Origin: Nitrosovibrio sp. Nv4 | Lineage (GTDB): Bacteria > Pseudomonadota > Gammaproteobacteria > Burkholderiales > SG8-39 | NCBI GenBank assembly: GCA_945906765.1 | Contig: CAMDRF010000009.1 | Coordinates: forward strand, 1 to 56,805 | Reading direction: 5' to 3' | Length of the DNA stretch: 56,805 nucleotides | In this document: positions 35,283-45,189 of the stretch, piece by piece | Layout: every line of letters begins with the position of its first letter | Position numbering within the stretch: position 1 is the stretch's first letter | The notes under the pieces: model-generated | Told to the model about the DNA's origin: nothing | The model's database searches: none | The model's input: only the letters and a program-made list of their open reading frames with translations | Position numbers and translations under genes: made by a program

Positions 35283-35879
35283 TCAGGCCGGCGCATGCAG
35301 CAATGCCCGCAAGTCCTCGGCAAGGTCCTGCGCGATACGGTCGTGCCTTACGAACAGGCGCAGCCGGCCCTGCGGGTCGATGATGTAGCTCTGCCCGCTG
35401 TGATCGACGGTATAGGCGCCTGGCACGCTGCCGGGCCGCTTCTCGTAGAAAATCTTGAATTCCTTCGCCACGCGTTGCGTCGCGGCGGCGTCGCCGTAAA
35501 GGCCGAGGAAGCGCGGGTCGAAAGCGGGAACATACTTGGAGAGCACTTCGGCCGTGTCCCGCTCCGGATCCACCGTCACCATCAGCACCTGCACGCGCTC
35601 GGCATCCTTGCCGAGCGCCTTCATGACGGCGGCCGCATCGACCAGCGTCGTGGGACAGATGTCGGGGCAATGGGTAAAACCGAAGAACACAACCACCGCC
35701 TTGCCGCGGAAGTCCGCCAGCGTCCTCGGCTTGCCGTCGTGCCCGGTGAGCGCGAGCTCCTTGCCGAAGTCCGCGCCCGTGATGTCGGTGCTCTTGAATT
35801 TCGGCGCATCGGCCCCGCACGCCGCCAGCAGAACGGCTGCGGCGAACGCCAGAAACTTACGCCAGGTAATGATCGGCAA
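35283..35879 (-). CDS. senC: SCO1/SenC/PrrC copper-chaperone lipoprotein
   Basis: Thioredoxin-fold copper protein (198 aa) that helps assemble the CuA centre of cytochrome oxidase. A lipoprotein signal ends in LLAAC (C21). The copper motif [14 protein letters not shown] places the cysteines at 71 and 75; the third ligand histidine is in [12 protein letters not shown]. The start is TTG 35879, overlapping the ctaB end by 23 bases, so the two are coupled. It was presumably the end gene of the ancestral cox operon. Confidence 0.92.
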
Positions 35880-36777
35880 GCAGCGCCGCGAACAGCGCCG
35901 ACAGGTACACGATGGAGTAGCGGAAACAGCTGCGCGCGAGGCGATCGCTGTAGGCGACGTAGATGCGCACCGCGTAGCCGATGTAGACCAGGCCGAGCAC
36001 GGTTGCCGCCGCCAGATAGAGCCAGCCGCTCATGCGCACGGCGAACGGCAGGAGCGAGACGCCGAACAGGATCAGGGTGTAGAGCAGCACCTGCAACCGC
36101 GTGTAGTCCTTGCCGTGCGTCACCGGCAGCATCGGCACACCGGCTCTCGCGTAATCCTCGGTGCGGTACAGCGCGAGCGACCAGAAGTGCGGCGGCGTCC
36201 AGGCGAAGATGATCAGGAACAGGAGCATTGCCTCGGTGGTAACCTGCCCGGTCACCGCGGCCCAGCCCAGCACCGGCGGCATCGCCCCGGAAGCGCCGCC
36301 GATGACGATGTTCTGCGGCGTGAGGGGTTTGAGGATCACCGTGTAGACGACCGCGTAGCCGACGAAGGTGCCCAGCGTCAGCCACATCGTCAGCGCGTTC
36401 ACGTAATGCACTAGGATCCACAGGCCGAAGCCGCCGACCGCGCCGGCAAACACCACGGCCTGCAGCGGCGTCAGCTCGCCGCGCGGCAGCGGGCGCCAGC
36501 TGGTGCGCTGCATGCGCGCGTCGATCTTCTGCTCGACCAGGCAGTTGACCGCGGCCGCGGCGCCGGCCACCAGCGCGATGCCGAGGGTCGCGGCAAGCAG
36601 GACCTGCAGCGGCACCATCCCGGGCGTGGCGAGCAACATCCCGATCACCGCGGTGAAGACGATCAACGAGACGACGCGCGGCTTGGTGAGCGCGAGAAAA
36701 GCCCGGGCGCGGCGGCCCAGCGTCCTGGCGGAGGATTCGGAAAGGAATTCGGAGGACAAGGCGGAAAATTTTAGCAC
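35857..36777 (-). CDS. ctaB: Protohaem IX farnesyltransferase (haem O synthase)
   Basis: Polytopic membrane prenyltransferase that makes haem O for haem-copper oxidases. Clear UbiA-type motifs: [17 protein letters not shown], the aspartate-rich [32 protein letters not shown], and the second block [18 protein letters not shown]. About eight or nine hydrophobic segments are visible. The start is uncertain: GTG 36777 and TTG 36759 are both possible, and neither has a good ribosome site. Confidence 0.93.
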
Positions 36778-36826
36778 GGGTAAAATGGCGGACCTGCCGC
36801 TCATTGCATCGCTGGGAGAGGATCGG

Positions 36827-37137
36827 ATGGACTTCACCGTAGGGATGCTGCTGGGGACATTTGTACTCTCGGTCCTGGCCCTTTTCTTCTTCATCTGATC
36901 GATGGCCCGGGGGCTGTTCGCAATGGCCAGTCGGCCGCGGCCGTTATCTTCGCGCGCAATCAGTTCGGCATCGTTGAAGATCCGGCGGCGACTGCCCAGG
37001 AGCAAGGCGATCTTCAACTCATGCGGCACATGACAGCCGCCGAAATTGGACAACGGGCGCTGTATCAGGACGGCGCCGGCACACAGCACCACGAAGTCCG
37101 CGAGTGGATTGAGGCGATCCGCGCTCGCCTTCAGTGA
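36827..37137 (+). pseudogene. Small single-pass membrane protein, broken by a stop codon and a frameshift
   Basis: ATG 36827 follows GGGAGAGG and encodes a membrane segment ([19 protein letters not shown]), then TGA at 36896. Past the stop the frame continues SMARGLFA, and after a one-base shift near 36923 reads [20 protein letters not shown] ... [14 protein letters not shown] to TGA 37135-37137. The joined product would be about 103 residues with the TGA in place of a likely TGG tryptophan. I do not recognise the family. Its place beside ctaB suggests a link to oxidase assembly. Confidence 0.6.
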
Positions 37138-37236
37138 CACGTGGAGAGGATCAAGATCCACCTTCGATAACACCTCCCTATTAAAACCGTATCAATATCG
37201 GCCGTCGTGATTTCCTGAAAGCGGGTTCGCTCCCCG
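37138..37236. other. Gap between the broken membrane protein and a small frameshifted reading frame
   Basis: I see no gene, RNA or clear promoter here. It is more A+T-rich than the surrounding housekeeping operons and may be close to the left edge of the replaced oxidase segment. Confidence 0.4.
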
Positions 37237-37438
37237 ATGGCCACTTCAAATTCCTCCACCCGTGGCCACCGGGGACCCAACCATAGCTTTGCCCGTTTCG
37301 AACAAGCCTTAAGCGACGGCAAACGTATCTTTTTCGTGGATCTCGAGCCCCCCCCAAGAGGAAGCGGTATTGGAGAAGACGCTAAAATCCCACCCGCAAG
37401 CGGAGCTGGCAGGAACGGGGTCAGGATTTCCTCATTGA
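37237..37438 (+). pseudogene. Small reading frame interrupted at a run of eight C residues
   Basis: ATG 37237 starts a frame reading NHSFARFEQALSDGKRIFFV. At a run of eight C (37348-37355) this frame passes into glycine/arginine-rich sequence, but with one C fewer it would continue QEEAVLEKTLKSHPQAELAG to TGA 37436-37438, giving about 66 residues. The continuation looks far more like coding sequence. The run could be a real indel, a slippage site or a sequencing error. The family is not recognised. Confidence 0.45.
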
Positions 37439-37444
37439 GCAGTC

Positions 37445-38455
37445 ATGAACAAAATATCTCTCAAATTCAGCCTCATGATAACCAGCGTCGCGCTGGCGGC
37501 GGTGCTTGCCGGGGTGTGGCTCGCTGACGTATATCGGGAACACGATGCGCGGGCCATGTTGCTGCCGAGTCAGGTGATCACCTTGTTTCCCGAGCCCAAG
37601 CCGTTGACGGCCTTTGCGCTTACCGATCATAAGAATCGGGTATTCGATGTTGCGAGCTTGAAGGGTAAATGGTCGTTTCTCTTTTTCGGCTTCACCCATT
37701 GCCCGGACGTTTGTCCGACGACCCTGGCGGAACTGGCCCGCGCGCGCGACGACATCGCCAGGCATACGGCCGGCGCCGAAGATGTCCAGTTCGTCTTTGT
37801 CTCGGTGGATCCGAATCGCGATACCGCCGGCAAGCTCGGGCAATACGTGGGCTACTTCGATGCGGCCTTTCTCGGTGTGACGGGAAACGACGCGCAGATC
37901 GGCAACCTGGCCGGTCAACTGGGCGCCGTGTATCAGGTTGCGAACGCACCAGAGTTGGAAAACTATCCCGTCACTCACAGCACGGCGGTATTTCTGCTGG
38001 ATCCGCGCGCCCGCTATCATGCCGTGTTCACGCCGCCGCATGATGCGGAGGCCATCGGCAAGCGTTTCAAAGTGGTGCGGGAGCTTGAAGCAGGCGATGC
38101 GGTTTCGGTACGCGATGCCTGGATCCGGGAAGCGCCGCCCGGCATGACGATGATGGCGGGATACATGGAGTTGCGGAACAACACCTCACGGCCGCAAGTA
38201 CTCGTGGCCGCAAGCAGTTCCGGGTTCGGCAGCGTGATGATTCACCGCACTATCGTCAAGGACGGCATGGCGGGTATGGCGCACGCGTCGCGGCTCGAGC
38301 TTGCAGCCAACGCGAGTTTGATCTTCGCGCCGGGAGGCTATCATCTGATGCTGATGAAGCCGAAACGGTCACTGCGCGCTGGCGACCGGGTCGACATCAA
38401 TCTGGAATTCCGCGGCGGCCTTGTGTTACCCGTCGCCTTCGAGGTCCGCAAATGA
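37445..38455 (+). CDS. SCO1-like domain fused to a PCu(A)C copper-chaperone domain
   Basis: 336-residue protein joining two periplasmic copper chaperones usually encoded separately. An N-terminal anchor (LMITSVALAAVLAGVWLA) is followed by a SCO domain with [14 protein letters not shown] (C86, C90) and the histidine in YPVTHSTAVFLLDP. From about residue 220 there is a PCuAC (DUF461) domain: MTMMAGYMELRNNT, SVMIHRTIVKDGMAGM and the C-terminal HLMLMKPK, with the histidine and methionine ligands of the family. In known systems PCuAC hands Cu(I) to the CuA site of subunit II while SCO acts as chaperone or thiol reductant, so the fusion fits assembly of the adjacent oxidase. It converges on the cytochrome gene. 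Confidence 0.9.
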   Translation: MNKISLKFSLMITSVALAAVLAGVWLADVYREHDARAMLLPSQVITLFPEPKPLTAFALTDHKNRVFDVASLKGKWSFLFFGFTHCPDVCPTTLAELARARDDIARHTAGAEDVQFVFVSVDPNRDTAGKLGQYVGYFDAAFLGVTGNDAQIGNLAGQLGAVYQVANAPELENYPVTHSTAVFLLDPRARYHAVFTPPHDAEAIGKRFKVVRELEAGDAVSVRDAWIREAPPGMTMMAGYMELRNNTSRPQVLVAASSSGFGSVMIHRTIVKDGMAGMAHASRLELAANASLIFAPGGYHLMLMKPKRSLRAGDRVDINLEFRGGLVLPVAFEVRK

Positions 38456-38470
38456 GAACCGGCAAACGGT

Positions 38471-38974
38471 CTATTTCGACTGCGCCACCATGTAGTCGAC
38501 GGCGGCCTTGACCTCGGCGTCGCTCAACGCCGGGTTGCCGCCTTTGGCCGGCATCACTCCAGCGCTCCCCTGCATCCCATTGACGGCGCTGGCGTAGAGA
38601 GTATTGAGGCCCTTGGCGATGGGCTTGGCCCACTGGCCTTTGTCACCCAGCTTCGGCGCGCCGGCGATGCCGGCGCCGTGGCAGACGACGCAGCTCGCCT
38701 GGTAGACTTGTTGGCCGTCGCGGCCGGGCGACGCCGCGGCCGCCGCGATTTTTACCGGCTCCGGCCGAGTTTCCGCCGAAAGGATGCTGACCTGGCCGAC
38801 GGGTTTGATCCGCTCGGCCACGCTCGAAGCGGTGGACAGCAGCGCGCCGCGGTCCAGCCGGACCCGCTCGGGGATGCCGCGGTGATGGGCCACCAGAACG
38901 AATATGAACAGCAGCAACACCGCACTGGCCCCAAGAATCATCGCAACGTGCATCGCGTAGCTTTTTTTGGTCAT
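38471..38974 (-). CDS. Membrane-anchored class I cytochrome c
   Basis: 167-residue c-type cytochrome. An N-terminal membrane segment (HVAMILGASAVLLLFIFVLV) anchors a linker and a single haem domain with CVVCH near residue 97 and the distal methionine in GVMPAKGGNPALS. It resembles cytochrome c5. It overlaps the oxidase subunit IV stop (ATGA) and is the last gene of the leftward cox operon, so it may deliver electrons to that oxidase. Confidence 0.88.
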   Translation of the reverse strand: MTKKSYAMHVAMILGASAVLLLFIFVLVAHHRGIPERVRLDRGALLSTASSVAERIKPVGQVSILSAETRPEPVKIAAAAASPGRDGQQVYQASCVVCHGAGIAGAPKLGDKGQWAKPIAKGLNTLYASAVNGMQGSAGVMPAKGGNPALSDAEVKAAVDYMVAQSK

Positions 38975-39336
38975 TGCACCAACAATCCCTTCACGAAAAA
39001 GACGCCCCGCGTAAAGAAGGTGTAGTCCGCTTCAAGCGCGCCGATGCCCAGAAGCACCATCAGCAACAGCGTCGGGACCAAGATCGCATACATCAGGGCC
39101 AGGCGCTCCCACATCATGTGCATGAAGACGGCGACGATCAGCCCGGCCTTCAGCAACATGAACACGATGATCAGAAACCACCTGAGGTAACCCTGAAATT
39201 GGTAGTAGTCGACCGCATAAGACGCGGCGCTGAGAACGAACAGCAATCCCCAGATTTTGAGATAAATGCCGATCGGATGTTGCTGGCCCTCTACGTGTGC
39301 CCCGATAGCCGGTTGTCGCCCCTGTGCGTGTTCCAC
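38971..39336 (-). CDS. Cytochrome c oxidase subunit IV (prokaryotic type)
   Basis: 121-residue membrane protein of the bacterial COX4 family: three hydrophobic segments, with HPIGIYLKIWGLLFVLSA, FLIIVFMLLKAGLIVAVFMH and LVPTLLLMVLLGIGAL. GTG 39336 is chosen; AAGGG lies just upstream and it begins 8 bases after the subunit III stop. Subunit IV of this type is found with caa3/bo3-like oxidases. Confidence 0.85.
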   Translation of the reverse strand: MEHAQGRQPAIGAHVEGQQHPIGIYLKIWGLLFVLSAASYAVDYYQFQGYLRWFLIIVFMLLKAGLIVAVFMHMMWERLALMYAILVPTLLLMVLLGIGALEADYTFFTRGVFFVKGLLVQ

Positions 39337-39344
39337 GATAGCCC

Positions 39345-40067
39345 TTACCAAAGATAGAAGAGTGCGAAGATGAATACCCACACCAGATCGACGAAGTGCC
39401 AATACAGGCCCATGGTTTCGACCATCTCGTAGTTGCCCTTCCTGCCGGTCAGAAAGCCCGGCCTCTGGTGATCCAGATCCCCCCGCAACACTTTTATCGC
39501 CACGACGATCAGGAAGATCACGCCGATCGTCACGTGGGTGCCATGGAAACCCGTGATCATGAAAAAGGCCGAGCCAAACTGGGCCGCGCCCATGGGGTTG
39601 CCCCAGGGACGTACCCCATCCTTGATCAGCGTGATCCACTCAAAGGCCTGCATGCCGACGAAGGTGGCGCCCAATGCCGCGGTGATCAGCAACAGGATGA
39701 AGGTCATCTGCTTGTTTTTCTGATAACCGAATCTGACCGCCATCGCCATCGTGCCGCTGCTGCTGATCAGGATGAAGGTCATGATGGCGATCAGGAGGAG
39801 GGGGACTTGCTTGCCGAAGAGCGTTAAAGCGAAGACCTCGCTGGGATTGGGCCAGGGCTCCACGGTGGACATGCGCACCGTCATGTACGAGATCAAAAAA
39901 GCGCTGAAGATGAAGGTATCGCTGAGGAGGAAGATCCACATCATGGCCTTGCCCCAGGGGACATTCTTGAACGCCCGCTGGTCGGAGGACCAGTCGGCGA
40001 CGATGCCTTGCACGCCGTCAGCCAGCGGCAGGGGTTGTGCGATAGTCGTCGGAGTCGCTGGTGTCAT
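39345..40067 (-). CDS. Cytochrome c oxidase subunit III
   Basis: 240-residue haem-copper oxidase subunit III with about six to seven membrane segments. Family blocks: GKAMMWIFLLSDTFIFSAFL, FEWITLIKDG, GFHGTHVTIGVIFLIVV and ETMGLYWHFVDLVWVFIFAL. It is the second of two adjacent subunit III homologues, 15 bases downstream of the first. Confidence 0.92.
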   Translation of the reverse strand: MTPATPTTIAQPLPLADGVQGIVADWSSDQRAFKNVPWGKAMMWIFLLSDTFIFSAFLISYMTVRMSTVEPWPNPSEVFALTLFGKQVPLLLIAIMTFILISSSGTMAMAVRFGYQKNKQMTFILLLITAALGATFVGMQAFEWITLIKDGVRPWGNPMGAAQFGSAFFMITGFHGTHVTIGVIFLIVVAIKVLRGDLDHQRPGFLTGRKGNYEMVETMGLYWHFVDLVWVFIFALFYLW

Positions 40068-40082
40068 GTGCTTCGGGCCTTC

Positions 40083-40733
40083 CTACCTGATCCCGCAGAG
40101 CTTCAATAAAAGGTCCAGATTATTCCCGGTGAACAGCAGACCAAAAAGGACCAACCAGACCAGCAGCAGGAAGTGCCAGTAAACGGTGCACAGCTCCACG
40201 CTCTGCCTGACCTTCGCCACCTCGAAATCGCCCCACACTTTGGCGACGGTCCTGCCCCAGGCCACCAAACCGCCCAACAGGTGCACCCCGTGCACTCCCG
40301 TGATCAGATAGAAAAACGCGATTGCCGGATTCGTGACGTCGAAATAAACCATCATCGCCAGCTGCCGCCAGGCCAGGACCTGCCCGAACAGAAAAACCAC
40401 GGTGAACGCCCCGCCGGCGAGCAGCCCCACTCGCATGGCGTCCATCTGCCCGCGACGCACCGAATACTGCGCCCACTGCAAGGCGGCACTGCTCAAGATC
40501 AGCACCAAGGTATTCGCCCATAACAGGTTTACCTGGGGTGCCGGACGCCAGTCCTCATACACCATCCGGCCGCCGTAGGCGGTGACCAAAAGCGTGAACA
40601 GGACCGTGACCACCGCCAGAAATACCCTCAGAGCGAGTTTCTTCGCAAGCCGGGAAGATGCGCCTCCAGCGTAAAGGTCATCGAGCTTGCCCTGGTCGGC
40701 CGCCCAGGGCTTGGCCATCAACTGTTGGAACAT
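40083..40733 (-). CDS. Second cytochrome oxidase subunit III homologue
   Basis: 216-residue membrane protein of the subunit III family: AANTLVL-like LLWANTLVLILSSAALQWAQ, ITGVHGVHLLGGLVAWG and ELCTVYWHFLLLVWLVLFGLL. It is more divergent than the neighbouring subunit III, and tandem subunit III genes are uncommon in betaproteobacterial aa3 operons. ATG 40733 lies 2 bases after the subunit I stop. The two copies may give a split or duplicated subunit III. Confidence 0.88.
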   Translation of the reverse strand: MFQQLMAKPWAADQGKLDDLYAGGASSRLAKKLALRVFLAVVTVLFTLLVTAYGGRMVYEDWRPAPQVNLLWANTLVLILSSAALQWAQYSVRRGQMDAMRVGLLAGGAFTVVFLFGQVLAWRQLAMMVYFDVTNPAIAFFYLITGVHGVHLLGGLVAWGRTVAKVWGDFEVAKVRQSVELCTVYWHFLLLVWLVLFGLLFTGNNLDLLLKLCGIR

Positions 40734-40735
40734 AC

Positions 40736-42499
40736 TCACGTGCGGGCGACCTCTCGCGCCGGGACGTTTTGCGGTATGAAGTCCTGGTCGGCGCCCGGCA
40801 CGCTGTAGTCGTACGCCCAGCGATAAACCACCGGTAACGTGGCGCCAAAGTTGCCGTGTTTCGGCGGCGTATCGGCGGTTTGCCACTCCAGCGTGGTGGC
40901 GTTCCAGGGGTTGCCCCCCGATGGTTTGCCTTTGAAATAACTCCAGACCAGGTTGTACAAAAACACCAGTTGGACGGCGCCCACGAGCAAGGACGCGATG
41001 GTGATGCCGGCGTTCAAGGACTGCGCCGATGCGGGGATAAAGTCCGTGCCTCCCACTGCATAATACCGGCGCGGCACGCCCAAAAAGCCCAGGTAATGCA
41101 TCGGCAGGTAGATGGCATAGGTGCCGAGGAAGGTGGCCCAGAAGTGGAATTTGCCCATGCCCTCGTTCAGCATGCGGCCGGTGATCTTGGGATACCAGTG
41201 GTAGATCGCCCCGAACACCACCATGATCGGCGCCACGGCCATCACCAAATGGAAGTGGGCGACCACGAACATGGTGTCCGAAAGCGGTACGCTCACGGTC
41301 ACGTTACCGAGGAACAGGCCCGTCAACCCGCCATGGATGAACGCGAAGATGAAGCCAATGGCGAACAGCATCGGGACGGTGAGCTGGATGTTGCCGTGCC
41401 ACAGCGTCAGGACCCAGTTGTAGACCTTGAGGGCCGTGGGAACGGCGATGATCAGGGTGGTGGTGGCGAAAAAGAAGCCGAAGTACGGGTTCATGCCGCT
41501 GACGTACATGTGGTGGGCCCACACCACGAAACTCAAGCCCCCGATGGCCACGATCGCCCACACCATCATCCGATAGCCGAAGATGTTTTTTCGCGCATGG
41601 ACGCTGAGCAGGTCGGAGACAATGCCGAAGGCCGGCAGGGCGACGATGTAGACCTCGGGATGACCGAAAAACCAGAACAGGTGTTGAAACAACAACGGAC
41701 TGCCTCCCGCGTGTTCACTCTGTTGTCCCATCGAAACGAGGGCGGGCATGAAGAAACTCGTGCCGAGAAGCAGGTCGAACAACATCATGATGGCGCTGAC
41801 CAACAAGGCGGGAAAGGCCAACAGCGCCAGAACCGTGGCCATGAAAATGCCCCATATCGTCAGGGGCATCCGCATCAGCGTCATGCCGCGTGTGCGCGCC
41901 TGTAATACGGTCACCACATAGTTCAAACCGCCCATGGTGAAGCCGATGATGAAGAAGACCAGGGAAACGAGCATCAAGATGATTCCCCAAGTCGCCCCCG
42001 GCGTGCCCTGGAGGATTGCCTGGGGCGGGTACAGGGTCCAGCCGGCGCCCGTAGGCCCGCCTGGCACGAAGAAACTCGCGACCAGCAACAATACGGCGAA
42101 CAGATAGACCCAGTAACTCACCATGTTGACATAGGGGAAAACCATATCGCGGGAGCCGACCATCAGCGGGATCAGGTAGTTGCCAAACCCCCCCAGAAAC
42201 AACGCGGTCAGCAGGTAGACAACCATGATCATGCCGTGCAGGGTGACGAACTGCAGGTAGTTGCTCGGGTCGATAAAGGAGAAGCTGTCCGGAAAACCCA
42301 GTTGCAGCCGGATCAACCACGACATCACCAACGCCACCAAGCCGATGCCGATCGCGGTGATCGCGTACTGGATGCCGATGACTTTGGCGTCCTGGCTCCA
42401 GACGTACTTCCCCAGCCAAGTTTTCGGATGGTAAAGCTCCATCTCCCCGACTTCGGCGGGTGGGGCGAAAACCGATGCGTCATGCGCAACGTAAGCCAT
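40736..42499 (-). CDS. ctaD: Cytochrome c oxidase subunit I (A-type haem-copper oxidase)
   Basis: Catalytic subunit (587 aa), about 12 membrane helices. Haem and CuB ligands are present: FVTLHGMIMVVYLL, FFGHPEVYIVALPAFG (CuB histidine and the A1-type glutamate), WAHHMYVSGM and VVAHFHLVMAV. GAGGAG precedes ATG 42499 by 6 bases. An N-terminal extension of ~35 residues precedes the first helix. It follows the subunit II gene by 33 bases. Confidence 0.96.
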   Translation of the reverse strand: MAYVAHDASVFAPPAEVGEMELYHPKTWLGKYVWSQDAKVIGIQYAITAIGIGLVALVMSWLIRLQLGFPDSFSFIDPSNYLQFVTLHGMIMVVYLLTALFLGGFGNYLIPLMVGSRDMVFPYVNMVSYWVYLFAVLLLVASFFVPGGPTGAGWTLYPPQAILQGTPGATWGIILMLVSLVFFIIGFTMGGLNYVVTVLQARTRGMTLMRMPLTIWGIFMATVLALLAFPALLVSAIMMLFDLLLGTSFFMPALVSMGQQSEHAGGSPLLFQHLFWFFGHPEVYIVALPAFGIVSDLLSVHARKNIFGYRMMVWAIVAIGGLSFVVWAHHMYVSGMNPYFGFFFATTTLIIAVPTALKVYNWVLTLWHGNIQLTVPMLFAIGFIFAFIHGGLTGLFLGNVTVSVPLSDTMFVVAHFHLVMAVAPIMVVFGAIYHWYPKITGRMLNEGMGKFHFWATFLGTYAIYLPMHYLGFLGVPRRYYAVGGTDFIPASAQSLNAGITIASLLVGAVQLVFLYNLVWSYFKGKPSGGNPWNATTLEWQTADTPPKHGNFGATLPVVYRWAYDYSVPGADQDFIPQNVPAREVART

Positions 42500-42532
42500 C
42501 AAAATCTCCTCTTCGCTAATCGAGCCGGCCCG

Positions 42533-43903
42533 TCATTTCAGGGCATTGATGTAGGCAACGAGGTCATTGATTGCCCGCTCGTCGGTCAGAGTTTTGGACA
42601 TCAATGTCATCTGGGGTCCGTACATGTCTTGCGGATGGGCGCCGCGAACACCCTGTTTGAAATTTTTCAATTGAGTGACCAGATACCAATCGCTCATCCC
42701 CTTCAGCGCGGGGGCATTCATCGCCTGTACGCCCTGCCCACCAGGACCGTGACAGGTTCCACAGGTCGATACATAAAGCCTTTTACCGTCGTTCGCATTG
42801 CCCTTCACCGTGGCCGGGGCAGGATTATCCGGCAGCGTCTTGATATAAGCGCTGACGTTATCGATGGCGGCGTCATCGGCCAGCGTCGCCGCTATCGGCG
42901 CCATCATTTTACCGAACACATCCTTGTCGTGTGTCCCCCGGGTACCTTGCTTGTAATTTTTCAATTGCCGTTGCAGGTACCAGTCTCCCAGCCCGCTCAA
43001 TTTCGGCGCATGCAGCGCGGGATTGCCCTCCGCTTGCACGCCATGACAGGCAGCACACACCGCATAGAGTTGTTTGCCCGCGGCAGCATCGCCGGTTGCC
43101 CGCGCCGAGGTTTGCGCGAACGTCGGATGGCCGCTTAACCACGCCTGAAACGCGGGCTCTTCTTCCACCACCACTTTGCCGCGCATGACGTAGTGCCCGA
43201 CGCCGCACAATTCGTTGCAGAGGATGTCGAATTTCCCGGTTCGGGTGGGGGTGAGCCAGAAATAGGTGACCATGCCCGGCACCAGATCCATCTTGGCCCG
43301 GAACTGCGGTACCGCGAAGTTGTGCAGGACGTCTACGGAGCGCAGCAGCAGCTTGACCGGCTTGCCGATGGGGAGATGCAGCTCCGAGGCCGGTATCAAG
43401 ACGTCATCCTGTCCGTTGGGATCGTCGGGATTCATGCCAAACGGGTTTTTATCGCTGATGTACTTGGCATCGACGGTACCCAACTTGCCGTCATTGCCCG
43501 GGAAGCGAAAGCTAAAAAACCATTGCTTGCCCACCACCTCGACCACCGCCGCATCGTTCGGGACCTCGACGAATTTCGCCCAGACAAACAAGCCGGGGGC
43601 CAACATGGCGGCGATGCCCACCGCGGTCAATCCGACCAGCCACGCCTCCAGCTTCTTGTTCTCGGGTTCGTACGCGGCCCGTTTTTCCTTCCGGTAGCGG
43701 AAGCGGACCACGCAATAAGCCATGAACAAATTGACGGCGACGAAGACAGACCCCGTGATCCAGAACGTGAGCTTGATGGTGTCGTCGATCGCGCCCCAGT
43801 TGGAGGCGATCGGCGTGAAATACCACGGGCTCAGGAATTGAAAAAGGACGGAGCCCAGGACCAACAATATCAATACGATCGCCATAGCCATGCGCGGATT
43901 CAA
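42533..43903 (-). CDS. ctaC: Cytochrome c oxidase subunit II with two fused cytochrome c domains
   Basis: 456-residue subunit II. Two membrane helices lead to a cupredoxin domain whose CuA ligands are H194 and C229-N-E-L-C233...H237...M240. Two homologous haem c domains follow: CAACH at 283-287 and CGTCH at 381-385, each with a block like DWYLxxQLKNxKQGxRG, evidence of tandem duplication. The usual caa3 subunit II has one haem c domain; two are unusual. It probably receives electrons directly without a separate soluble cytochrome. It is the first gene of the leftward oxidase operon, behind a terminator at 43923-43950. Confidence 0.94.
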   Translation of the reverse strand: MNPRMAMAIVLILLVLGSVLFQFLSPWYFTPIASNWGAIDDTIKLTFWITGSVFVAVNLFMAYCVVRFRYRKEKRAAYEPENKKLEAWLVGLTAVGIAAMLAPGLFVWAKFVEVPNDAAVVEVVGKQWFFSFRFPGNDGKLGTVDAKYISDKNPFGMNPDDPNGQDDVLIPASELHLPIGKPVKLLLRSVDVLHNFAVPQFRAKMDLVPGMVTYFWLTPTRTGKFDILCNELCGVGHYVMRGKVVVEEEPAFQAWLSGHPTFAQTSARATGDAAAGKQLYAVCAACHGVQAEGNPALHAPKLSGLGDWYLQRQLKNYKQGTRGTHDKDVFGKMMAPIAATLADDAAIDNVSAYIKTLPDNPAPATVKGNANDGKRLYVSTCGTCHGPGGQGVQAMNAPALKGMSDWYLVTQLKNFKQGVRGAHPQDMYGPQMTLMSKTLTDERAINDLVAYINALK

Positions 43904-43922
43904 CTCCCAAGCGCAACTCGGT

Positions 43923-43950
43923 TAAAAAGCACGGGTGAAGCACCACCCGT
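43923..43950 (-). terminator. Intrinsic terminator between the coxB stump and the new cox operon
   Basis: On the minus strand a 7-base-pair stem (43950-43944 with 43937-43931) and 6-base loop are followed by GCTTTTTA. It would stop transcription coming from the coxB stump or BioC side before the cox operon. Confidence 0.7.
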
Positions 43951-43972
43951 AGCTTGCCAAGGAACAATGATA

Positions 43973-44245
43973 TCAAATTAATGCCTGCGCGATCGCCGTC
44001 TTGGTGACGGGCCAGGCGATGATCGCGAGGATGATCAGCGGGATCACCGTCCAGGCAATCTCGACGCCGATATTCTGGTGAAAATTCGCCGCCTTGCGGC
44101 CAACCGACTTGCGGTGCGCAACCACCGACCAGAACATGAAGGAGAACACGCCGATGAAAATCACGGCGCACAGGATCATCACGTACTCGTGCAGGTCGTA
44201 AATGAGCGTCTCGCAAGCGTGAAAAATGCCGCGCAATATTACCAC
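43973..44245 (-). pseudogene. Stump of a canonical cytochrome oxidase subunit II gene
   Basis: The 90-residue frame matches only the membrane part of subunit II: YDLHEYVMILCAVIFIGVFS, FWSVVAHRKSVGRKAANFHQ, VEIAWTVIPLIILAIIAWPV. It stops where the CuA domain should start and also lacks the usual signal peptide. It is unlike the fused subunit II next door, so it is not a duplicate of that gene. I read it as the remains of the ancestral coxB of this locus. Confidence 0.8.
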
Positions 44246-44262: not shown

Positions 44263-45189
44263 TCAGCGCCGGCGTTCGAACTGCACTATGGCGCGCCCGT
44301 CCGCGGCCCGGCGCGGCGCCGCCTTCCAGGCGTGGCCGTACACCACTTCATAGCTGACGGAAAGCCCGCCCGCGCCGCGCTGCGCCGCGAGCTTCTCCAT
44401 GAGAACAGCGCGGAACCGCCGCCCGGCGAGGCCGCGCCGCGGTTCGCCGATCGGGCCGCTGAGCGCGCAGGTCTGGCCGCTCGCGCGCAGATCCGCGAGC
44501 AGCGCCTCGCCATCCGCGTACACCATGGTGATGCGCTCCATGTCCATCACCGGCTCGGCGAAGCCCGCCGCGACCAGCATGTCGCCCAGGTCGTGCATGT
44601 CGGCGAACGAATGAACCCTCGCCGCGCCCGCCGCCGAGCGCAGTTCGGCGAGCGTATCGGGGCCGAGCGTGCTGAACATCAGCAGTCCCTCGACCGCGAG
44701 CACACGATGGAACTCATGCAAGGCGGCGAGGGGATCCGCCGCCCAATGCAGGGCCATGTTCGACCACACCAAGCCGATCGTCGCGCTCGCAAAGGGCAGC
44801 CGGGCCAGATCGGCGCACACCGGCTTGGGCGGCCGCCGCTGGAAAAAGCGCAGGCGCGGCCGGCCCGCATGCAGCATCGCCCGCGAGAAATCGACGGCGA
44901 GCACGTCCGCTTTACGGTAGCGCTTGGCCAGCGCGCGCGCATCGCGCGCCGGGCCGCTGCCGGCATCGAGCACCCGGCGCGGCGCGAGCTTCACGTAATC
45001 GAGGCGCTCGAGCATGCGCGCGCCGACTTCGGTTTCCAGCCTGGAGGCATGCGCATAGCTGTTTGCAGCGCGCTCGAACCTGCGCCGCGCAGTGCGCGCG
45101 TCTATCGCAAAACCAGGGGGGCGCGGCCGCCCCGGCTCAATTTCCGCCGGCAAGCACGCCTTCCACGGCGCGTGCGGCGGCGAGCACAT
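44263..45189 (-). CDS. bioC: Malonyl-ACP O-methyltransferase (BioC-like)
   Basis: SAM-dependent methyltransferase that would mask the malonyl carboxyl group to start biotin synthesis. Blocks seen: FERAANSYAHASRLETEVGA (BioC N-terminal helix), SAM loop VLDAGSGPARDARAL, LVWSNMALHWAADPLAALHE and FSTLGPDTLAELR. No other biotin gene is nearby. The start is uncertain: ATG 45189 overlaps the upstream amidase by 53 bases; TTG 45153 would shorten this to 17 bases. Confidence 0.85.
   Translation of the reverse strand: MCSPPHAPWKACLPAEIEPGRPRPPGFAIDARTARRRFERAANSYAHASRLETEVGARMLERLDYVKLAPRRVLDAGSGPARDARALAKRYRKADVLAVDFSRAMLHAGRPRLRFFQRRPPKPVCADLARLPFASATIGLVWSNMALHWAADPLAALHEFHRVLAVEGLLMFSTLGPDTLAELRSAAGAARVHSFADMHDLGDMLVAAGFAEPVMDMERITMVYADGEALLADLRASGQTCALSGPIGEPRRGLAGRRFRAVLMEKLAAQRGAGGLSVSYEVVYGHAWKAAPRRAADGRAIVQFERRR

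Follow-up and report, generated by a model that had tools for sequence, protein, structure and literature searches.

Gene content of the oxidase locus

The window considered here, the whole of contig 9 (56,805 nucleotides) of Nitrosovibrio sp. Nv4, carries a cytochrome c oxidase gene cluster of coxMNOP type, set between the two native ends of an ordinary cox operon. The genome, called G000 below, is a 3.10-Mb assembly of 149 contigs that is listed as 95% complete; other G labels denote genomes of the same family, and L labels denote loci. One end of the site consists of senC, encoding a SCO protein (35283..35879, minus strand; Pfam PF02630), and ctaB, encoding haem O synthase (35857..36783, minus strand; Pfam UbiA), the start of which was taken at 36783 within an open reading frame (ORF) spanning 35857-37173. 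At the other end, roughly codons 48-119 of an ordinary coxB survive as a remnant (43985..44203, minus strand) inside an ORF matching COX2_TM only (43973-44245, minus strand), and beyond it is a native methyltransferase gene (44263..45015, minus strand; Pfam Methyltransf_11) that is also the neighbor of the site in relatives. A sequence-only reading of this DNA had placed ctaB-senC on one side and a coxB stump on the other, and both Pfam and comparison with same-genus genomes agree with it.

Between these ends, and read from the stump inward on the minus strand, are the genes for subunit II (CoxM-like; 42533..43885), with a COX2 domain for CuA and two cytochrome c stretches, each with a CxxCH haem site; subunit I (CoxN-like, A1 type; 40736..42442; Pfam COX1, E 9e-134); two tandem subunit III proteins (40083..40733 and 39345..40067; Pfam COX3); subunit IV (38971..39303, start taken at 39303; Pfam COX4_pro); and a mono-haem cytochrome c (38471..38974; Pfam Cytochrome_CBB3 / Cytochrom_C). 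Convergent to them, on the plus strand, is a gene joining SCO and PCuAC domains (37445..38455; Pfam PF02630 + PF04314). The sequence-only reading had the gene content right (a di-haem subunit II, tandem subunit III genes and a SCO-PCuAC fusion), and the minus strand that it named holds for ctaB, senC and the stump, and also for the oxidase genes; the fusion gene runs the other way.

The cluster is predicted to encode a cytochrome c oxidase of a known type, coxMNOP (“A1, a-III”, ccaa3-like), for which two COX3 genes after subunit I are the distinguishing arrangement. Subunit I aligns with a solved structure at the A1 motifs ffghpevyi, ahhmy, vahfh, srdmvfpyvn and vptalk; we take GHPEVY, the HH pair, HFH and the D- and K-channel motifs to have their usual residue roles. 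Subunit II matches solved aa3 subunit II, with cnelcgvgh aligned, as well as cytochrome c4. Among named records, subunit I appears close to CoxN-type sequences, with 74-88% identity in the best 80 of 591 loci, which include Bradyrhizobium, Ramlibacter and Rhizobium; the CoxN label is our own reading of unannotated records. Identity is 74% to a locus of Pseudomonas sp. GM41 and 77-80% to Bradyrhizobium loci, where subunit II matches over only 57-70% of the query and may thus be missing the haem part. The coxMNOP genes were reportedly a subject of Bradyrhizobium work in 1992. In the account given by passages of PMC5492768, the ccaa3-type coxMNOP of Pseudomonas pseudoalcaligenes KF707 likewise comprises subunit II, subunit I and two subunit III genes, and its CoxM also has two CxxCH sites. 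A doublet of COX3 homologues, as found here, also marks COX operon type a-III, or A1 subtype a-III, in passages of PMC6431628 and PMC4013037, which classify operons, mainly of alphaproteobacteria, and in which displacement of one by another does not figure. Unlike the KF707 and Bradyrhizobium systems, the cluster in the window occupies the native cox locus, has a cytochrome c gene and SCO-PCuAC attached, and is found where the ordinary oxidase is gone.

On the stump side the import starts at 43985, and its first 100 bases or so, an upstream stretch (43886..43984), have counterparts at the corresponding position of G013 and G083 (77-79%). On the other side, ctaB is followed by a stretch (36784..37182) containing an ORF without a Pfam match (36787-37173); among the compared loci it gave no blastn match except in its first ~30 bases, which adjoin ctaB. 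Next come 50 bases (37183..37232) with 94% identity to G016, where they lie between a sco gene and ordinary coxB, and then a 42-base end of an IS21-family element (37229..37270), apparently a scar, with matches in 23 plasmid records. In all four plasmid regions opened, the 3′ end of istB was 28 bases away from this sequence. Copies of the IS21 end occur in 6 of 98 family genomes (one at G000:C90:7315-7337), and six of the ten copies outside the window lie no more than 200 bases from a contig end. No transposase is present here, so that a role for the IS21-family element can be put forward only as a possible one. The scar abuts a frameshifted 3′ gene remnant (37275..37435, plus strand) of a gene that is intact after the cluster in G051, G049 and G079; blastn against L102, L055 and L056 gave 72-74% over 148-149 bases, and tblastn gave 57% and 48% in two frames.

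In G083, sco and pcuAC are separate neighbors: sco has its own stop, and the pcuAC that follows carries a signal peptide of its own. The SCO-PCuAC gene of the window fuses the two in frame, without that signal peptide. They are also split in G019, G110 and G112; in G013, G016 and G074 the locus showed the SCO part alone.

The base composition of the cluster had been judged by eye to be poorer in G+C than its flanks, and 1-kb windows confirm the dip: the span 36.5-44 kb has 57-64% G+C, with 63-71% on one side (30-36.5 kb) and 66-72% on the other (44-51.5 kb). Ordinary cox genes share it in part. The cluster as a whole is at 0.585, the ordinary cox genes of five same-genus loci at 0.624-0.648 and the flanks of those loci at 0.677-0.710, so that a fall of about half to three quarters this size is seen in ordinary cox genes too. 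At third codon positions the cluster has 0.80 G+C versus 0.92-0.95 in the ordinary cox genes of those five loci, and is close to the window's own flanks (0.84). Since the cluster ranges over 0.72-0.89 in the other genomes compared, these values mark the cluster and not one particular donor. At the contig end (55001-56500), G+C is about 55%, lower than in the oxidase cluster.

The ordinary operon and its remnants in the genus

The same site, with the same neighbors, holds the ordinary order coxB-coxA-ctaG-cox3-surf1-x-ctaB in four same-genus genomes (G003, G004, G008 and G012) and in a fifth over two contigs (G005); senC follows in four of the five, G008 being the exception. These readings of same-genus cox loci leave out G002, G006, G007 and G009. 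The comparison with relatives that the sequence-only reading had proposed thus recovered the old operon in place. The closest relative, G010, is sister to G000 with a support of 100 in an rpoB/C tree of 21 genomes, and it retains ctaG-x-cox3-surf1-x-ctaB-senC without an insert; the new subunit I had no match in G010. In this tree and in one further tree, support labels near the re-rooted base may be shifted, and the rpoB/C tree puts G003 with G051 of another genus, probably via a foreign contig, while the cox contig of G003 is genus-like. In G003, ctaB-senC is present twice in tandem at the contig end (L036 13997-16323), perhaps as an assembly effect. Another same-genus genome, G011, has 1050 bases before ctaB (L209 1-1052) with neither ordinary cox genes nor the cluster, a stretch that by eye encodes a small acetyltransferase and an antitoxin-like protein; no COX1 was found in this genome, which is 82% complete.

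Comparison of the two ends with these relatives indicates that both are native to the genus. The senC-ctaB segment has 87% DNA identity to G010 over 1402 bases, and CtaB is 85-91% identical to the proteins of three same-genus genomes versus 74-84% for seven others (one ctaB search, with a query one base out of frame, served for gene positions only). The stump protein corresponds to residues 37-120 of the 383 of intact coxB in same-genus G003 (68%, E 2e-28). At the DNA level the match to intact coxB is 82% over 218 bases. Around the coxB start 164 bases are absent, and nothing is left beyond codon 120; the stump therefore has no signal peptide, start or CuA domain. Among nine sequences compared, it is nearest to G003 (80% DNA identity). 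Its ratio of nonsynonymous to synonymous divergence (dN/dS) against G003 is 0.51, where intact pairs have about 0.21-0.57. The ratio is no proof of decay; the missing start and CuA part are.

Origin of the cluster and its arrangements in relatives

The genes between these ends are, by their divergence and phylogeny, foreign. Relatives of the window's subunit I at 78-94% identity occur in 20 of the 98 family genomes, a count that includes fragments and the window's own copy; among them are those of G074 (94%) and G013 (92%), both from outside the genus. Synonymous divergence (dS) between G000 and G013 is 0.25 for the cluster's coxA, 0.23 for coxB and 0.28 for cox3b, whereas rpoB/C give 0.55 for this pair and 0.33 even for G000 and its sister G010. 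Ordinary coxA shows 0.41 and 0.46 in two same-genus pairs, and 0.42-0.47 for four same-genus genomes against G013. A cluster that is less diverged between genera than ordinary coxA is within the genus points to horizontal acquisition. In a protein tree of 26 chosen rows, the clusters of G000, G074 and G013 form one clade (100/99), while that of G001, from the same genus as the window, lies apart; a single clade for the G000 and G001 clusters was rejected (p 3e-05). Within the clade, G000 groups with G074 in proteins (99/98) and in codon positions 1+2 (97). A further tree used a chosen part of 94 rows, with G110, G055, G082, G111, G080 and G109 left out for coverage below 55%.

These results bear on a history of vertical descent, in which both oxidases stood side by side in the ancestor of the genus, the new one then being lost in the other members and the old one in G000. 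Coexistence of both oxidases is common in the family, as described below, and agrees with such a history. At least three separate cluster losses would be needed on the rpoB/C tree (G010; G012; G004 with G005), G003 and G008 also being of ordinary type only but not reliably placed or not in the tree. The low dS to G013 likewise speaks against it, and a clade of G000 with G013 alone, the species-like order, was weakly rejected (p 0.022). Vertical descent is accordingly considered improbable.

In other genera, the cluster and the ordinary oxidase are found side by side. The cluster lies beside an ordinary operon in at least seven relatives (G013, G016, G019, G079, G083, G109 and G112), none of them of the window's genus. 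The sequence-only reading had expected replacement to leave no relative with a full ordinary operon beside the cluster, and three of these genomes (G016, G019 and G112) have exactly that; in the other four the adjacent operon is cut by a contig end or is without one gene. A further genome, G111, has the cluster beside ordinary coxB. Positions and orientations vary. In G016, over two contigs, the cluster lies between the methyltransferase gene and coxB; in G013 it sits between cox3 and surf1, with broken ctaB pieces in front of it; in G083 it follows ctaB, without senC. It is inverted ahead of the methyltransferase gene in G019 and G112 (and, up to contig ends, in G109 and G111), with the outer side of the G019 order also seen in G110, and it is inverted between ctaB and surf1, without ctaG, in G079. 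The broken ctaB pieces directly before the G013 cluster (L033 11520-11816) suggest arrival beside a ctaB copy. Of the best 80 of 591 named-record loci, two (L142 and L165) likewise combine the cluster with an adjacent ordinary operon, and a third, L109, pairs it with ctaB; L100 is the locus of G019 itself. In G014, of the same genus as G074, an ORF of 1027 aa lies on the opposite strand between ordinary cox genes and ctaB (L041 14183-17263).

The displaced state was seen on one contig each in the window and G074, and over two contigs, both ending inside subunit I, in G061. All told, the cluster is at the cox locus in 12 of the 20 genomes that have it; no link between the two was seen in G001, G049, G051, G053, G055, G081 and G082, and G080 has only a possible cox3 fragment. 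G001 was set aside as a clean displaced case because its ctaB-senC contig ends at ctaB and an ordinary operon may be unassembled; its cluster is at another genome location, just downstream of a diverged coxB-like fragment (L032 12633-13202; 47% to same-genus coxB). The G079 cluster groups with those of G053, G051 and G049 (99/98), which lie elsewhere than the cox locus, so that the locus has probably been entered more than once.

The side-by-side arrangements can be read as dual stages that would precede deletion of the ordinary genes. The pair G016 and G061 resembles the dual and deleted stages: in G061 the ordinary genes are gone from the site and a 19-residue piece of SCO-PCuAC remains next to ctaB, as would be left by deletion from a G016-like order, and the two genomes are neighbors in both the rpoB/C tree (96) and, with G019 and G112, the cluster tree (97/96). 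For the window, the course proposed is that the cluster inserted first, perhaps with an IS21-family element involved at one edge, and that a second event deleted the ordinary genes, sparing the coxB stump and, at the opposite end, ctaB-senC.

An alternative is replacement in one step, in which a donor fragment that already had the displaced arrangement recombined at both flanks. In G000 and G074 alike, a coxB remnant is followed by the cluster, a reverse sco, ctaB and senC; their clusters also group together in the protein tree, and no dual state was seen in the window's own genus. Yet each coxB remnant is nearest to its own genus (that of G074 to G014, at 82%), the remnants differ, with G074 also retaining coxB 319-358 and coxA 1-27, and the 105-base upstream stretch that G000 shares with G013 and G083 has no match in G074. 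One-step replacement is unlikely on this evidence, while keeping an appreciable chance. Joining of two organisms by assembly or binning is far less probable: although G000 is in 149 contigs, the 56.8-kb contig contains both breakpoints, flanked on either side by genes of native type, and the same order recurs on one contig of G074 and, similarly, over two of G061.

It is very likely that a coxMNOP-type cluster moved horizontally into the native cox locus, where the ordinary catalytic genes along with ctaG and surf1 were lost. Besides the lack of a same-genus dual state, several observations weigh against this account. The cluster dS between G000 and G074 (0.39-0.46), although below that of rpoB/C (0.59), lies within the ordinary coxA range between these genera (0.40-0.45), so that this pair fails to show transfer, and dS between G000 and G083 is mixed (0.27-0.46). 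Third codon positions give G000 with G013, at a support of 45, instead of G000 with G074. The stump is only slightly nearer to G003 than to G083 (78%), the G010 contig stops before coxA, and the genomes of the relatives are fragmented. Displacement in place is nevertheless well supported, because the ordinary operon is at this site in the genus, the ends are native and the middle is imported, with dual states in other genera. Of the replacement first proposed, the displacement holds, and so does the absence of ordinary coxA, ctaG, cox3 and surf1 from the site; a single swap as the only route does not, and neither does a loss of ctaA.

Assembly genes and biological meaning

The gene for CtaA is on another contig (G000:C11:32926-33855), as it is in five same-genus genomes, and its absence at the site is hence no loss. 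This led to rejection of the idea of an oxidase with haem O only; ctaB and ctaA are both present in G000. The search elsewhere for ctaG (PF04442) and SURF1 (PF02104) gave no match in G000, nor in G001, G074, G061, G009, G011 and G053 (7 of 28 genomes in all). Their non-detection in G009, G011 and G053 too makes absence from any one fragmented assembly weak evidence. The window and G074 are stronger evidence of ctaG and surf1 loss, with the old place read through on one contig. Caa3_CtaG was found in none of 16 genomes. PCuAC occurs away from the fusion in 15 of 16, G000 included; G061, with no PCuAC match, is the remaining one. A further proposal, that SCO-PCuAC stands in for CtaG in every displaced genome, was rejected, as G061 keeps only the short piece noted above. 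Passages of PMC9145763 describe it as an open question whether Sco and PCuAC take a direct part in assembling CuB.

In G000, electrons from cytochrome c would probably enter by the subunit II haems or by the small cytochrome c, reach CuA and then the haem-CuB center, where oxygen would be reduced. Haem would come from the retained CtaB with CtaA, and copper from SenC, SCO-PCuAC and the separate PCuAC. Since this genome has a COX1 count of one, with no other COX1 and no bd oxidase found in it, the cluster oxidase may be its main oxidase. As for the enzyme type in general, the relevant passages of PMC11540253 label coxMNOPQ of Cupriavidus necator as bb3 and report that inactivating it had no fitness effect, so that general importance is not shown.

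In situ displacement of operon genes is a known kind of process, and the present case is alike in that foreign genes replace native ones while the neighbors stay. It differs in that a whole catalytic set and its assembly genes are concerned, apparently in more than one lineage, with putative dual stages visible. Replacing a core respiratory enzyme is generally considered difficult, and displacement of a core respiratory operon at its own locus is unusual; a literature search limited to open-licence papers found no report of the present displacement.

A wider proposal, offered tentatively and with somewhat less than even confidence, treats the cox locus as a site of repeated landing in this family, with the ordinary oxidase displaced time after time by an A1 oxidase of coxMNOP type that does without Cox11/CtaG, Caa3_CtaG and Surf1 in its assembly. 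Displaced genomes would then amount to natural knockouts, with CuB filled by factors of SCO/PCuAC type or by unknown ones. A single family shows ordinary, dual and displaced states, and the displaced genomes (G000, G074 and G061), in which the A1 oxidase remains while Cox11-type CtaG, Caa3_CtaG and SURF1 are undetected, give a hint as to the assembly genes that belong with each oxidase. If these absences hold in closed genomes, such organisms would provide a natural test of the role of Sco and PCuAC in CuB assembly.

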